Part shown: piece by piece, positions 28,666-54,711 of the stretch
Layout of the letters: each line of letters starts with the position of its first letter
How positions within the stretch are numbered: position 1 is the stretch's first letter
Origin: Demequina sediminis
Lineage (GTDB): Bacteria > Actinomycetota > Actinomycetes > Actinomycetales > Demequinaceae
NCBI RefSeq assembly: GCF_030296675.1
Contig: NZ_AP027736.1
Location: 1,054,001 to 1,118,000, forward strand
DNA: 64,000 bases
Direction: 5' to 3'
The notes under the pieces: model-generated
Told to the model about the DNA's origin: nothing
Databases searched by the model: none
The model's input: the letters and a program-made list of their open reading frames with translations, nothing else
Translations under genes and position numbers: made by a program

Positions 28666-29076
28666 CTACTTCTTTCCGGTCTCGAGGACGATTCCGTCCG
28701 ATAGTGACACGAAGCCGAGCGCCGTCGCGGGAGCCATGCCGAGCTCCTCGGCGCGGGCGGCAAGGCTCGCGGGGGCCGCGTTGGTCTCGAGGGTCTCGAG
28801 GTACGCCGCGCTCTCCTTGTGGAGGGCGGCGATCTCGATCTTGAGGTCGCGGCGCTCGTACGCGCCCTCGGTCATCGAGGTGTTGAGCAGCAGCACGGCC
28901 GACAGCGCGCCGATCACGATCGCGACGCACAGCGTGGCGAAGGGCAGCAGCGACCGGCCACGCTCGGGCGCCTGGACGGCGCGCAGGTGAGTGCGGGTCC
29001 CCGTCTCGGGGCGCGCGCTCGGCGCGGTGCGGGGGTGCACGGCGGGACGCGGCTGGCGCAGGGGTGCGGCGCTCAC
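28666..29076 (-). CDS. ftsL: FtsL-like divisome membrane protein
   Basis: Small bitopic protein of about 136 residues between rsmH and ftsI, the FtsL position. GTG 29076 overlaps the rsmH stop (GTGA). It starts SAAPLRQPRPAVHPR. A basic Pro/Arg-rich cytoplasmic tail precedes one membrane helix (LPFATLCVAIVIGALSAVLL), then a coiled coil (YERRDLKIEIAALHKESAAY) and a C-terminal LGMAPATALGFVSLSDG motif typical of actinobacterial FtsL. Sequence similarity in this family is weak, so the call rests on topology and position. It is thought to form the FtsQLB complex with FtsQ and FtsB. Confidence 0.85.
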   Translation of the reverse strand: MSAAPLRQPRPAVHPRTAPSARPETGTRTHLRAVQAPERGRSLLPFATLCVAIVIGALSAVLLLNTSMTEGAYERRDLKIEIAALHKESAAYLETLETNAAPASLAARAEELGMAPATALGFVSLSDGIVLETGKK

Positions 29077-30068
29077 GGGTTCCTCCTGAGTCGCTGAGGC
29101 GGGGTGGGACGGAGGCGCTCGACCGCGCGGAGGCGGACGGGCTTGGATCGGGGGTTGCGCTCGGCCTCCTCGGCCGAGGCCTTTTCCGCTCCCCGGGTGA
29201 GGAGGCGCAGATAGGGAAGGTCCTCGTCCGGCACGACCGGCAGTCCGGGAGGGGCCTGAGACTCGGCGCCGGCGGCGAAGGCGCGCTTGACGATCCTGTC
29301 CTCGAGGGAGTGATACGACATGACGACCACGCGGCCCCCCACCCCGATCCCCTCGATCGCCGCGGGAATCGCTCGCTCGAGCACCTCGAGCTCGCGGTTG
29401 ACCGCGATCCTGAGGCCCTGGAACGTGCGCTTGGCCGGATTGCCTGCCCCCGGCGTACGCGTCGCGGCGGGAATGCACGCGCGCACCAGATCGACGAGCT
29501 GCTCCGAGCGCTCGAACGGCTCGGTCTCGCGACGCCGCACAATCGAACGGGCGATCTTGGAGGCGAAGCGCTCCTCGCCGTAGTCGCGCAGGATGCGCGT
29601 GAGCTCGCGCTCGTCGGCGTCTCGCAGGAGGTCGGCCGCCGAGACCGGATCGGCCGGGTTCATCCTCATGTCGAGCGGCGCGTCCTGCGCATACGAGAAG
29701 CCGCGCTCGGCATCGTCGATCTGCAGCGAACTCACGCCGAGGTCGAGCAGGATGCCGTGGGCCCGGTCGGCGCCGGCGGCCGCGAGCGCACCCTCGATGT
29801 CGTCGTACTCCGCGTGGTGCGCCACGAACCTATCGCCGAACCGTGCGAGCCGCGCCGACGCGAGGGCGATCGCCTGCGGGTCGCGGTCGATTCCGACCAC
29901 GCGCGCCTCGGGGCAGCGCTCGAGGATCGCCTCGGTGTGACCGCCCATGCCGAGGGTGCCGTCGATCGCGACCGAGCCGGGTGCGGCGAGGGCGGGGGCG
30001 AGCAGGTCGACACAGCGCTCCAGCATCACCGGCGTGTGCCGCGATGCGGCGTCGCGTTCCTGGTCCAT
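29073..30068 (-). CDS. rsmH: 16S rRNA (cytosine1402-N4)-methyltransferase
   Basis: SAM-dependent enzyme (MraW) that methylates N4 of C1402 in the ribosomal P site. 331 residues. ATG 30068 has a strong GGAGGGGAGG ribosome site. Motifs: HTPVMLERCVDLLAPAL, the SAM loop AIDGTLGMGGHTEAIL, GIDRDPQAIALA, LDLGVSSLQIDDAERGFSY, RTFQGLRIAVNRELEVLE and VVVMSYHSLEDRIVKRAF. All are expected for RsmH. It is preceded by a 122 bp gap containing a large inverted repeat. The stop overlaps ftsL. Confidence 0.96.
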   Translation of the reverse strand: MDQERDAASRHTPVMLERCVDLLAPALAAPGSVAIDGTLGMGGHTEAILERCPEARVVGIDRDPQAIALASARLARFGDRFVAHHAEYDDIEGALAAAGADRAHGILLDLGVSSLQIDDAERGFSYAQDAPLDMRMNPADPVSAADLLRDADERELTRILRDYGEERFASKIARSIVRRRETEPFERSEQLVDLVRACIPAATRTPGAGNPAKRTFQGLRIAVNRELEVLERAIPAAIEGIGVGGRVVVMSYHSLEDRIVKRAFAAGAESQAPPGLPVVPDEDLPYLRLLTRGAEKASAEEAERNPRSKPVRLRAVERLRPTPPQRLRRNP

Positions 30069-30103
30069 GTGCCCCTCCCCTCCCGTGAGTGATTGCCCGT
30101 CCT

Positions 30104-30188
30104 GCTCGTGCCTCGTGGTCTCCCTCCGAGTTCCTCTGGCGGGGGAAGTCCGCCAGAGCGATCCGGGAGGAGGCCACGAGGCACGAGC
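30104..30188 (-). repeat. Two-part long inverted repeat between mraZ and rsmH
   Basis: The outer arms GCTCGTGCCTCGTGG (30104-30118) and CCACGAGGCACGAGC (30174-30188) are perfectly complementary over 15 bp. Inside, CTCTGGCGG (30134-30142) and CCGCCAGAG (30150-30158) form a second perfect 9 bp stem with a 7-base loop; CCTCC/GGAGG tracts could extend the outer stem. The RNA would fold into one long hairpin that starts 2 bp after the mraZ stop and ends about 35 bp before the rsmH start. There is no T run on either side, so it is not a classical terminator; an attenuator, processing or stability element is possible. Confidence 0.75.
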
Positions 30189-30190
30189 CC

Positions 30191-30658
30191 CTACATGTCG
30201 TCGAAAATCTCTGCGGCGGTCTCCGCGTAGGCGTCCTCGCCCGCCTCGAGGTAGTCCTCCCACTTCTGGGCGTCCCACACCTCGACCCGGGAACCCATGC
30301 CGACCACGGCGACCTCGCGCTCGAGCCCCGCGTAACGGCGCAGGGGCTGCGACAAGAGGATCCGTCCCTGCTTGTCGGGGATGTCGTCGCTCGCGTGCCC
30401 CAGGAAGCTGCGCAGGTAGTCGCGCGCGGCCTTGTTCTCGAGCGGGGCCCGGCGCAGCCGGTCGTGGATGTGCGCGAACTCGTCGAGCGGGAAGAGGAAC
30501 ACGCAACGGTCGAGTCCTCGCGTCGCGACGAGTCCCGAGGCGAGCCTGCCGCGGAACTTCGCGGGCAGGATCAGGCGGCCCTTGTCGTCGAGACGCGGCG
30601 TGAAGGTGCCGAGGAAGACGCCGGTCGGGCCCAGCCCGAGCGTCGCGGTGTCCGACAT
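30191..30658 (-). CDS. mraZ: Division cluster regulator MraZ
   Basis: AbrB-fold DNA-binding protein, first gene of the dcw cluster and usually a repressor of it. From ATG 30658 (GGAGGGGAGGG just upstream) about 155 residues. Two SpoVT/AbrB repeats: VFLGTFTPRLDDKGRLILPA with KFRGRLASGLVATRG, and DDIPDKQGRILLSQPLRRYA with VVGMGSRVEVWDAQKWEDY. Many MraZ proteins begin at the FLGT motif; here a GTG exists at that position, so a shorter start about 12 codons in is possible. Three 10 bp repeats matching MraZ sites lie immediately upstream. Confidence 0.94.
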   Translation of the reverse strand: MSDTATLGLGPTGVFLGTFTPRLDDKGRLILPAKFRGRLASGLVATRGLDRCVFLFPLDEFAHIHDRLRRAPLENKAARDYLRSFLGHASDDIPDKQGRILLSQPLRRYAGLEREVAVVGMGSRVEVWDAQKWEDYLEAGEDAYAETAAEIFDDM

Positions 30659-30692
30659 CGGCCCTCCCCTCCGGCTCCCGGCCTCTCCCGAT

Positions 30693-30723
30693 GTCCCCAC
30701 TTTACTCCACTTTGCTCCACAAA
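30693..30723 (-). promoter_or_regulatory. MraZ-binding direct repeats
   Basis: On the mraZ strand the DNA reads TTTGTGGAGC, AAAGTGGAGT, AAAGTGGGGA: three direct repeats with exact 10 bp spacing, 35-65 bp before the mraZ start. MraZ is known to bind TGGGN-like repeats separated by 5 bp in other bacteria, and these fit that rule (TGGAG, TGGAG, TGGGG). Autoregulation of the dcw cluster is therefore likely. The divergent moxR start lies about 140 bp further on. Confidence 0.75.
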
Positions 30724-30859
30724 TCTCGGTTCCGGGGCGAAATGTGGCGCAGATATGGATATATCCCCAGGCAAAGACGCGACGATGCGGTGGAGGGATT
30801 TGGCCGATCCCGGAGCGTCATGCGTCAACTAGGCTCGGACCAAGGGAAGAGGGGTACCC

Positions 30860-31855
30860 ATGACGATGACCGTCCCGACCACCGAGGAACTCGCGGAGGT
30901 GGCCGACCTCGCCCGGCGCGTGCGCGCTCAGCTCGACACGGTCCTGTCCGGACTCGACGACGCAATCGACGCCACGCTCGCGACGGTGCTCGCGGAGGGC
31001 CACCTGCTCCTCGAGGACGTGCCGGGGGTCGGCAAGACCACCCTGGCTCGCGCGTTGGGCAGGGCGGTCGACGCGAGCGTGGGACGCATCCAATTCACGC
31101 CCGACCTGCTGCCCTCTGACGTCACGGGCGTGAGCATCTACCGCGCGGACGACCACTCCTTCGAGTTCCGCCCCGGACCCGTGTTCGCGAACATCGTGGT
31201 CGCGGACGAGATCAACCGCGCGTCGCCGAAGACCCAGGCCGCGCTACTCGAGTCGATGCAGGAGCGCTCCGTGACCGTCGACGGGGCGACGCGGGCGCTG
31301 CCCGCCCCCTTCCTCGTGGTGGCCACGCAGAACCCGGTCGACATGGAGGGCACCTACCCGTTGCCCGAGGCGCAGCGTGACCGCTTCATGACACGCATCG
31401 CGGTCGGCTATCCGTCGGGTGCCGACGAGCTCGCGATGCTCGAGTCCCACGACGGGCACGACCCCCTCGGAGACGTGGTGCCCGTCACCAGCGCCGCCGC
31501 ACTCACCCGCGCGATCTCCGTGGTGCGCCGCGTGTACGCTTCCACCGCAGTAAAGCAGTACATCGTCGCGGTGGTGCGTGGCACCCGCGCCAGCGCCGAC
31601 CTGCGGCTGGGAGCCTCACCTCGCGCCTCGCTTCAGCTGCTCGCCGCGTGCAAGGCACGCGCCGCGATGCTGGGGCGGGACCACGTCCTGCCCGACGACG
31701 TCAAGTCGCTCGCCGTCCCCGTCCTCGCGCACCGGGTCATCCCCGCGGCCCAGGCACGGGCGGCGGGACGCAGCGCCGAGCAGATCGTCGCCGACGTCGT
31801 GAGCCAGGTCGCCGTCCCGACGGCACGCGAGCCCGAGCCCCTGCGCCGAGGATGA
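30860..31855 (+). CDS. MoxR-family AAA+ ATPase
   Basis: A chaperone-like ATPase of 331 residues. Walker A EDVPGVGKTTLARALG near residue 55, Walker B VVADEINRASPKTQAALLES, sensor region ATQNPVDMEGTYPLPEAQRD and arginine-rich RFMTRIAVGYP. These are diagnostic of the MoxR subfamily. ATG 30860 has an AAGGGAAGAGGGG ribosome site; ATG 30866 is an alternative. Its stop overlaps the DUF58 start (ATGA). MoxR-DUF58-transglutaminase operons occur widely and are thought to assemble or activate a cell-surface protein complex; the substrate here is unknown. It is divergent from mraZ. Confidence 0.94.
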   Translation: MTMTVPTTEELAEVADLARRVRAQLDTVLSGLDDAIDATLATVLAEGHLLLEDVPGVGKTTLARALGRAVDASVGRIQFTPDLLPSDVTGVSIYRADDHSFEFRPGPVFANIVVADEINRASPKTQAALLESMQERSVTVDGATRALPAPFLVVATQNPVDMEGTYPLPEAQRDRFMTRIAVGYPSGADELAMLESHDGHDPLGDVVPVTSAAALTRAISVVRRVYASTAVKQYIVAVVRGTRASADLRLGASPRASLQLLAACKARAAMLGRDHVLPDDVKSLAVPVLAHRVIPAAQARAAGRSAEQIVADVVSQVAVPTAREPEPLRRG

Positions 31856-53252: not shown

Positions 53253-54711
53253 CTATCCGGCGACGGCGTCCGCGCGAAGCTCGCGAATGACGGTCACCTT
53301 GATCTCTCCGGGGAACGTGAAGTCCGTGCTGATGTGCTCGGCAATTGTACGCGCCAACGCGTGCGTGCCCGCGTCGTCGATCTCGTCGGGCTCCACGATC
53401 ACCCTGACCTCGCGTCCCGCGGCCATGGCAAGCACGCGCGTGACGCCGTGGTGGTTGAGGACGAGTCGCTCAAGGTGCTCCATGCGCGTGACGTACGCGT
53501 CGAGGTCCTCGCGCCGTGCGCCCGGTCGCGCCGCGGAGATCGCGTCGGCGACCTGAACGATCACGGCCTCGAGGGATTCCGGCGCGACCTCATCGTGGTG
53601 GGCAGCGATCGCGTTGACCACCGCGCCATCCTCGCCGTGTTCCGCGGCGAAGCGTGCCCCCAGCGCGGCATGGGTGCCCGACTGCTCGTGCGTGAACGCC
53701 TTGCCGAGGTCATGGAGCAGCGCTCCTCCGAGCGACCTCGACATCCGCTCCGAGCACCGCCGCGATGTCCGCCGCCACCTGTGACGTCTCCACGAGGTGG
53801 GCGAGCACGTTCTGCCCATACGAGGTCCGCAGCCGCAGGCGACCGAGGACGTCCACGATCTCGGAGGCGACGCCCGACACCCCCGACTCCGACAGCGCGT
53901 CGAGCCCAGCCGCCCGGTGACGCTGCGACGCGCCGGCCACCGCGCGCGCGTAGGCCGCCTCGACGCGTTGCGGCTGAATCCGGCCGTCCACGACCAAGGC
54001 GGCCAACGTCACCTCGGCGAGCTCGCGGCGCTCGGGATCAAAGCACGACAACTGCACGGCGTTGACCCCCTCCTCGACAATCAGGTTCACGCCGGTGAGG
54101 GCCTCGAACGCGCGGATGTTGCGCCCCTCGCGGCCGATGATGCGTCCCTTCATCTCCTCACTCGGGAGGTTGATCCACAGCGTCGAGTGCTCGGCGGACG
54201 TCGCAGCCGCCTGTCGCTGCATGGCCTCGACCAGGATCTCGCGCGCACGCGCGTCGGCCGCGGCCTGGGTGCGGCGCTCGATGCGGCGCAGCTCGACCTC
54301 GGCGTCGGCCCGTGCCTTCGCGATGAGGGACTCGGCGAGCTCCGCACGCGCCTCTTCGGGAGTGGTGCGCGCGACGGCGGCGAGGGCGCGCTCACGCTCG
54401 TCCTCGAGACGTGCCCGGTCCGCAGCAACGCGCCTCTCGTCGCGCACGACGACCGCCGCGCGCTCCTCGAGTCCGCGTGCGTACTGCTGCGCGTGGCGGT
54501 GATCAGCCGACAGCTCCTTCTCACGCTGAAGGGTCTGCTCCTCGCGGCGCTTCGCCTCGGCGAGCCGCACCTGGATGTCCTGGCGAATGGACTCTGCCTC
54601 GCGACGCGCCGCGGAGCGCTCGGCCTCCGCCTCGCGACGAGCGAAGACGACGAGTAGCAAGGCGATGAGGCTCGCACCGAGCAACAAGAGGATGATCAAC
54701 GACTGGTCCAC
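53253..54711 (-). CDS. rny: Ribonuclease Y (frameshifted)
   Basis: Membrane-anchored endoribonuclease of mRNA decay. From ATG 54711: [20 protein letters not shown], a membrane helix; a long coiled coil ([20 protein letters not shown] to about residue 165); the KH domain [19 protein letters not shown]; and the HD domain. Within the HD region the frame shifts at the GCGC at 53720-53723: DVEVARR in one frame continues as [19 protein letters not shown] in another, restoring the essential HD pair. The shift is net +1, best explained as loss of one GC dinucleotide. Joined length about 486 residues. Alternative: an extra base. This is unlikely to be programmed frameshifting. Confidence 0.9.

Follow-up and report, generated by a model that had tools for sequence, protein, structure and literature searches.

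The mraW motif was tabled in 2010 for the Actinomycetales as probably an RNA and probably cis-regulatory, with its status as a riboswitch given as ambiguous (PMC2864571). It is held in Rfam as family RF01746, whose type is cis-regulatory. According to later reports the motif occurs in C. glutamicum, C. diphtheriae, C. pseudotuberculosis, and mycobacteria, and its transcription has been reported for Corynebacterium. A paper from 2017 stated that mraW motif RNAs were still of unknown function, and described two Orientia tsutsugamushi sequences, formerly annotated as mraW RNA, that resemble a fungal AU-rich hairpin, the link between the two being uncertain (PMC5640933). Later work in which mraW RNA function was tested was not found in the open-licence literature. 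Two further systems are close enough to be compared. The 6C RNA has hairpins with cytosine-rich loops in actinobacteria, as does the mraW element, but it is described as a free small RNA with two C-rich stem-loops (PMC4046766). The mraW element has, in contrast, one UUCCC loop and a place between mraZ and rsmH. The other system shares with this locus the gene mraZ: judging by the title of a 2016 paper by Maeda and colleagues, the mraZ mRNA of C. glutamicum is said to be set post-transcriptionally by RNase III, a double-strand-specific RNase, which reportedly cleaves it in the coding region.

The hairpin under study lies in the window, by which we mean the whole 64 kb stretch of Demequina sediminis DNA that was analysed. 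The reading order on the minus strand is mraZ, hairpin, rsmH. The mraZ gene (30191..30658, minus strand; 155 aa plus stop, TAG at 30193-30191) matched TIGR00242 with 124 bits, and rsmH, also named mraW (29072..30068, minus strand; 331 aa, ATG at 30068), matched TIGR00006 with 290.5 bits, both over their cut-offs. The hairpin at 30104-30188 on the minus strand is real and its coordinates hold. A first-pass annotation, made from the sequence, had described perfect outer and inner stems of 15 and 9 bp, and both were confirmed: on the plus strand the outer arms GCTCGTGCCTCGTGG (from 30104) and CCACGAGGCACGAGC (to 30188) are perfectly complementary over 15 bp, and the inner arms CTCTGGCGG (30134-30142) and CCGCCAGAG (30150-30158) over 9 bp. 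The pairing of the middle part had been missed. Most bases between the outer and inner stems also pair, and the supposed two-part hairpin is a single rod of approximately 35 bp with short interruptions. The apical loop region ACUUCCCCC occupies 30141..30149 on the minus strand, with 30143-30149 unpaired in the predicted fold. The stem is separated by 2 nt from the mraZ stop and by 35 nt from the rsmH start codon. A purine-rich rsmH ribosome site, GGGAGGGGAGGGG (30072..30084, minus strand), stands within the latter interval; in this species, pairing between this site and the loop is possible.

A search of the window for inverted repeats whose arms are separated by no more than 150 bases gave 77, of which this hairpin is the longest. 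Folding of the coding strand yielded −76.2 kcal/mol (z −5.2) and folding of the plus strand a z of −6.7; for either strand, none of 200 shuffles was as good. The hairpin is single-copy in its own genome, where it was found at one place and on its own other strand, and a third match, at E 9.7, is at chance level. A REP-like repeated palindromic element was rejected, as several copies are required and one place was found.

RF01746 was the sole Rfam family over its cut-off in the window. The match (30096..30192, minus strand) covers model positions 1-107 of 107 with 53.8 bits (gathering score 50, E 1.4e-8 for the window), compared with 39.7 bits for the opposite strand. Because the match runs end to end and exceeds the curated cut-off, the hairpin is not undescribed: by sequence it belongs to the mraW RNA family, a kind already known. 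The first-pass annotation had known of no described element of this kind between mraZ and rsmH in actinobacteria, and this claim of novelty is hereby corrected, RF01746 having been published in 2010 (PMC2864571). The Demequina copy shares with the family the full-length match on the correct strand, the loop ACUUCCCC, the site upstream of mraW/rsmH, and the wider taxon (Actinomycetales, PMC2864571). It differs from the RF01746 consensus by lacking four inner-stem positions on each side and two loop positions, departures that are ordinary variation. The marks of the family that can be read from sequence were thus found, namely the gathering score, a long hairpin with the ACUUCCCC loop, the place before rsmH in an actinobacterium, and compensatory change.

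The element was present in all 36 Demequina genomes examined, and order-wide matches added two more genomes of the same genus. Within the window's order, 165 of 198 genomes matched RF01746 at E ≤0.01, 89 of them over the cut-off, in a scan with strict filters that left 33 genomes without a match. At least two of these 33 matched our own model: G038 (locus L196) with 48.5 bits and G042 (L198) with 44.5 bits. At two other loci without an RF01746 match (L197 and L199, genera g4 and g20) the aligned MraZ and RsmH stretches are about 83 and 14 nt apart, respectively. In family f22, which probably holds the mycobacteria and corynebacteria, 151 of 151 genomes matched RF01746 (120 over the cut-off), and a phylum-wide draw gave 34 matches in 396 genomes (23 over the cut-off). 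Two of the 14 control genomes, C. glutamicum and Thermus composti, had a match, one of the two over the cut-off; the match in Thermus composti is probably due to chance.

The position of the element is close to constant. Of the 191 model-matched loci, selected through a match to Rfam or to mraZ and not at random, 190 have it in the mraZ-rsmH gap, on the strand of both genes, and the remaining locus (L129) ends at a contig edge with rsmH out of sight. Four weak Rfam matches from outside the known groups (L087, L088, L089, and L209) were set aside; the surrounding DNA contains no mraZ or rsmH match and they look like chance. In six genomes of family f21, which by our guess is Streptomyces, no MraZ match was detected in the 1.5 kb before rsmH, and no element was detected there either. 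Four of the six had no RF01746 match, and the other two had weak matches below the cut-off and away from rsmH, in G245 at other coordinates with no mraZ or rsmH nearby and in G401 on another contig. Two loci from other classes of the phylum (L260 and L262) have 183 and 167 nt between the mraZ stop and the RsmH match; no UUCCCC occurs there, and by eye these stretches seem to hold a small open frame instead.

The distance from the mraZ stop to the stem is about 4 nt in Demequina (37 loci, range −1 to 8), compared to a median of 18 nt in 116 other loci (range −3 to 216). Close coupling between stop and stem is therefore not general, and the variable spacing outside Demequina argues against a mechanism in which translation of mraZ melts the base of the stem.

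Compensatory changes were sought in the mraZ-rsmH gaps of relatives with two alignments. The first consisted of 99 rows from chosen relatives of many families, fitted to our own structure model; double changes were found in 25 of its 29 stem pairs, a result favoured by the structure fitting and by the many rows that had also been used to build the model. The second alignment, of 36 Demequina rows, was made with MAFFT and no structure model and is free of such bias; here 9 of 28 pairs had pair-keeping changes on both sides. In the 99 rows the covariation score was 0.546, as opposed to 0.210 for shuffled alignments, with none of 500 shuffles as high, and 92.5% of the stem cells were paired, versus 73.9% after shuffling and 35-47% when the partner was slid by 1-3 columns. 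The first-pass annotation had argued for an RNA-level element at the mraZ-rsmH junction, and the covariation and the constant location both support it; taken as a whole, its interpretation is supported in part.

Read on the coding strand, the stem cells of the 99 rows contain 204 G-U and 93 A-C combinations. This excess points to an RNA of the mraZ strand and not only to a palindrome in DNA. Our own model gave 73.7 bits for the coding strand and 48.9 bits for the complement, a difference in the same direction as that obtained with the Rfam model, both models having been trained on the coding strand. The G-U excess and the higher coding-strand scores make RNA transcribed from the mraZ strand the most likely target of selection.

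The loop core UUCCC was identical in 99 of 99 rows, and the C before it was present in 97. Interruptions of the middle stem fall at three places, columns 17/124, 21/120, and 28/114, where standard pairs occur in 43, 28, and 16 of the 99 rows, respectively. At 21/120 a C opposite an A is the commonest combination (52 of 99 rows), and the same C-A mismatch is found in 34 of the 36 Demequina rows. Set within a covarying stem, the fixed loop and the recurring interruptions look like a recognition surface. At locus L299 (genome G614, G614:C1:1055809-1055911) the mraW rod is of unusual length and almost perfect; its loop is CUUCCCC and its folding energy −91.8 kcal/mol.

Upstream of the mraZ start, at 30695-30720 on the minus strand, we observed the direct repeats GTGGAG/GTGGAG/GTGGGG with 10-base spacing, which are candidate MraZ operator boxes. 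Part of these repeats is similar to the loop complement GGGGAAGT. Binding of the loop by MraZ as DNA was nevertheless rejected, since by eye the spacing differs.

We hypothesize that the mraW RNA is an intercistronic element whose loop is recognised by a partner and which uncouples mraZ from the division-gene mRNA through processing or stability. We prefer this reading and hold it tentatively, as one that may quite possibly be right. The element would act in cis, as a rod inside the mraZ-rsmH transcript. A putative partner, probably a protein, would recognise the loop and the interrupted middle stem, and mraZ mRNA would thereby be uncoupled in amount from the rsmH message and the division genes that follow. 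The route would be RNA processing, or the protection or exposure of an RNA end, rather than termination at a U tract. Sequence comparison supports the hypothesis with the compensatory stem, the coding-strand RNA, the invariant loop, the three recurring mismatches, and the location in the mraZ-rsmH gap. As to termination, UUUU was absent from the 15 nt after the stem in all 191 loci, and a scan of both strands of 29900-30900 gave no terminator-like site. An intrinsic terminator of the standard kind is therefore excluded, as the first-pass annotation had already concluded from the absence of a T run in this sequence.

Published RNA ends fit the processing reading loosely. A 5′ end mapped by RNA-seq for C. 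glutamicum mraW (2,266,932) falls in the 3′ part of the predicted 106-nt motif (2,267,021-2,266,916), about 90 nt from its beginning (PMC3890552), and the stretch upstream of Rv2165c in M. tuberculosis reportedly yields RNAs of 60 and 30 nt (PMC3526491). The C. glutamicum end was itself called a start site (PMC3890552), and in C. diphtheriae a transcription start for mraW was reported downstream of the motif; for these reasons a separate mraW promoter, rather than processing, is possible. In C. diphtheriae the reported start site speaks for a promoter. We also considered whether the rod is the place of the RNase III cleavage reported for C. glutamicum mraZ mRNA. In 10 of 10 genomes of g303, a genus that is probably Corynebacterium, the rod begins 10-61 nt past the mraZ stop; the cleavage, placed in the coding region, is therefore not obviously at the rod.

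The genome's own RNases were inspected. The first-pass annotation had mentioned rny in the same genome, and RNase Y is indeed encoded inside the window (about 53262-54618, minus strand), where it gave two strong partial matches. The frame is split: two reading frames meet near 53722-53726, and neither half alone reaches the family cut-off. The completeness of the assembly is 92.99, and sequencing indels are therefore as likely as a real RNase Y pseudogene. The RNase III gene of the same assembly (G000:C1:302380-302999, L266) also consists of two overlapping frames. That both RNases look broken suggests assembly errors.

In a more specific form of the hypothesis, a dedicated RNA-binding factor of actinobacteria, for which MraZ and RsmH themselves are candidates, would recognise the UUCCC loop and the three mismatches, and the division operon would follow the level of this factor post-transcriptionally. 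We regard this form as unlikely. The six genomes in which neither mraZ nor the element was detected before rsmH would be in line with it.

Of the competing explanations, the one that survives best is an attenuator or riboswitch, in which a ligand or protein forms or melts the rod and so sets transcription into rsmH, for example by Rho-dependent or U-less termination. The cis-regulatory type in Rfam and the 2010 entry, probably cis-regulatory with ambiguous riboswitch status (PMC2864571), agree with it, and so does the start of the rod 2 nt past the mraZ stop in the window. It is weakened by the lack of a U tract in all 191 loci, and no alternative structure was noticed in an unsystematic inspection. 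A rod with a small loop would, moreover, be unlike most ligand pockets. We consider attenuation rather unlikely, though a serious candidate.

Masking of the rsmH ribosome site by the loop was initially taken as the first mechanism and was demoted to a rival because the pairing fails as a general rule. Translation would be controlled in cis, the C-rich loop CUUCCCC pairing with the rsmH Shine-Dalgarno sequence GGGGAGG. In the window, pairing of the rsmH leader with the loop reached −12.7 kcal/mol, stronger than that of all 32 background leaders. GGGGAGG or GGGAAGG is also present at the rsmH site of several relatives, and GGGGAGG in one published M. tuberculosis leader (PMC3526491). Across loci, however, the effect was small: the rsmH leader averaged −7.1 compared to −6.5 for neighbouring genes (88 loci, Wilcoxon p 0.15), and real loops gave −7.57 compared to −7.05 for shuffled loops (155 loci). 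Some loci, such as L036, L058, and L135, have no such ribosome site while the loop is unchanged, and in the other genera the stem is a median of 68 nt from the rsmH start (interquartile range 38.5-91.5, 116 loci). As an explanation of the element, masking is thus improbable; in Demequina sediminis itself, pairing of this kind is possible.

Long GC-rich rods block 3′-to-5′ exonucleases, and the rod could shield a separate mraZ mRNA at its 3′ end, with rsmH transcribed from its own promoter and no dedicated partner involved. The C. diphtheriae start site reported past the motif is in line with such an arrangement. The invariant loop and the recurring mismatches would, however, be left unexplained, and no sigma-70-like site was found between the stem and rsmH, or elsewhere in 29900-30900 on either strand, by the strict sigma-70 consensus used. 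We consider this explanation about as improbable as masking.

About equally improbable is a role in trans, in which the rod would be released as a small RNA and its C-rich loop would target G-rich ribosome sites, as 6C RNA may do. Although the loop is invariant, RNAs of 60 and 30 nt are reported for the M. tuberculosis region (PMC3526491), and the mraW motif was recovered among C. glutamicum short transcripts, in the mRNA leader class (PMC4046766), trans action would not need the place next to rsmH that is kept in 190 of 191 loci, the mraZ leader varies within Demequina (GAGGAGG or GGGGAGG) while the loop is constant, and pairing of the mraZ leader with the loop was only somewhat better than with shuffled loops (−10.16 vs. 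−8.90), a weak signal.

With membership in RF01746 settled, interest turns to what this family does, and not to whether the Demequina hairpin exists. A widespread RNA, matched in 165 of the 198 genomes from the order and in 151 of 151 of family f22, heads the cluster of division and cell-wall genes, and its loop and mismatch positions are direct targets for mutation. If a dedicated factor does bind them, the element would place cell division under feedback at the level of RNA.
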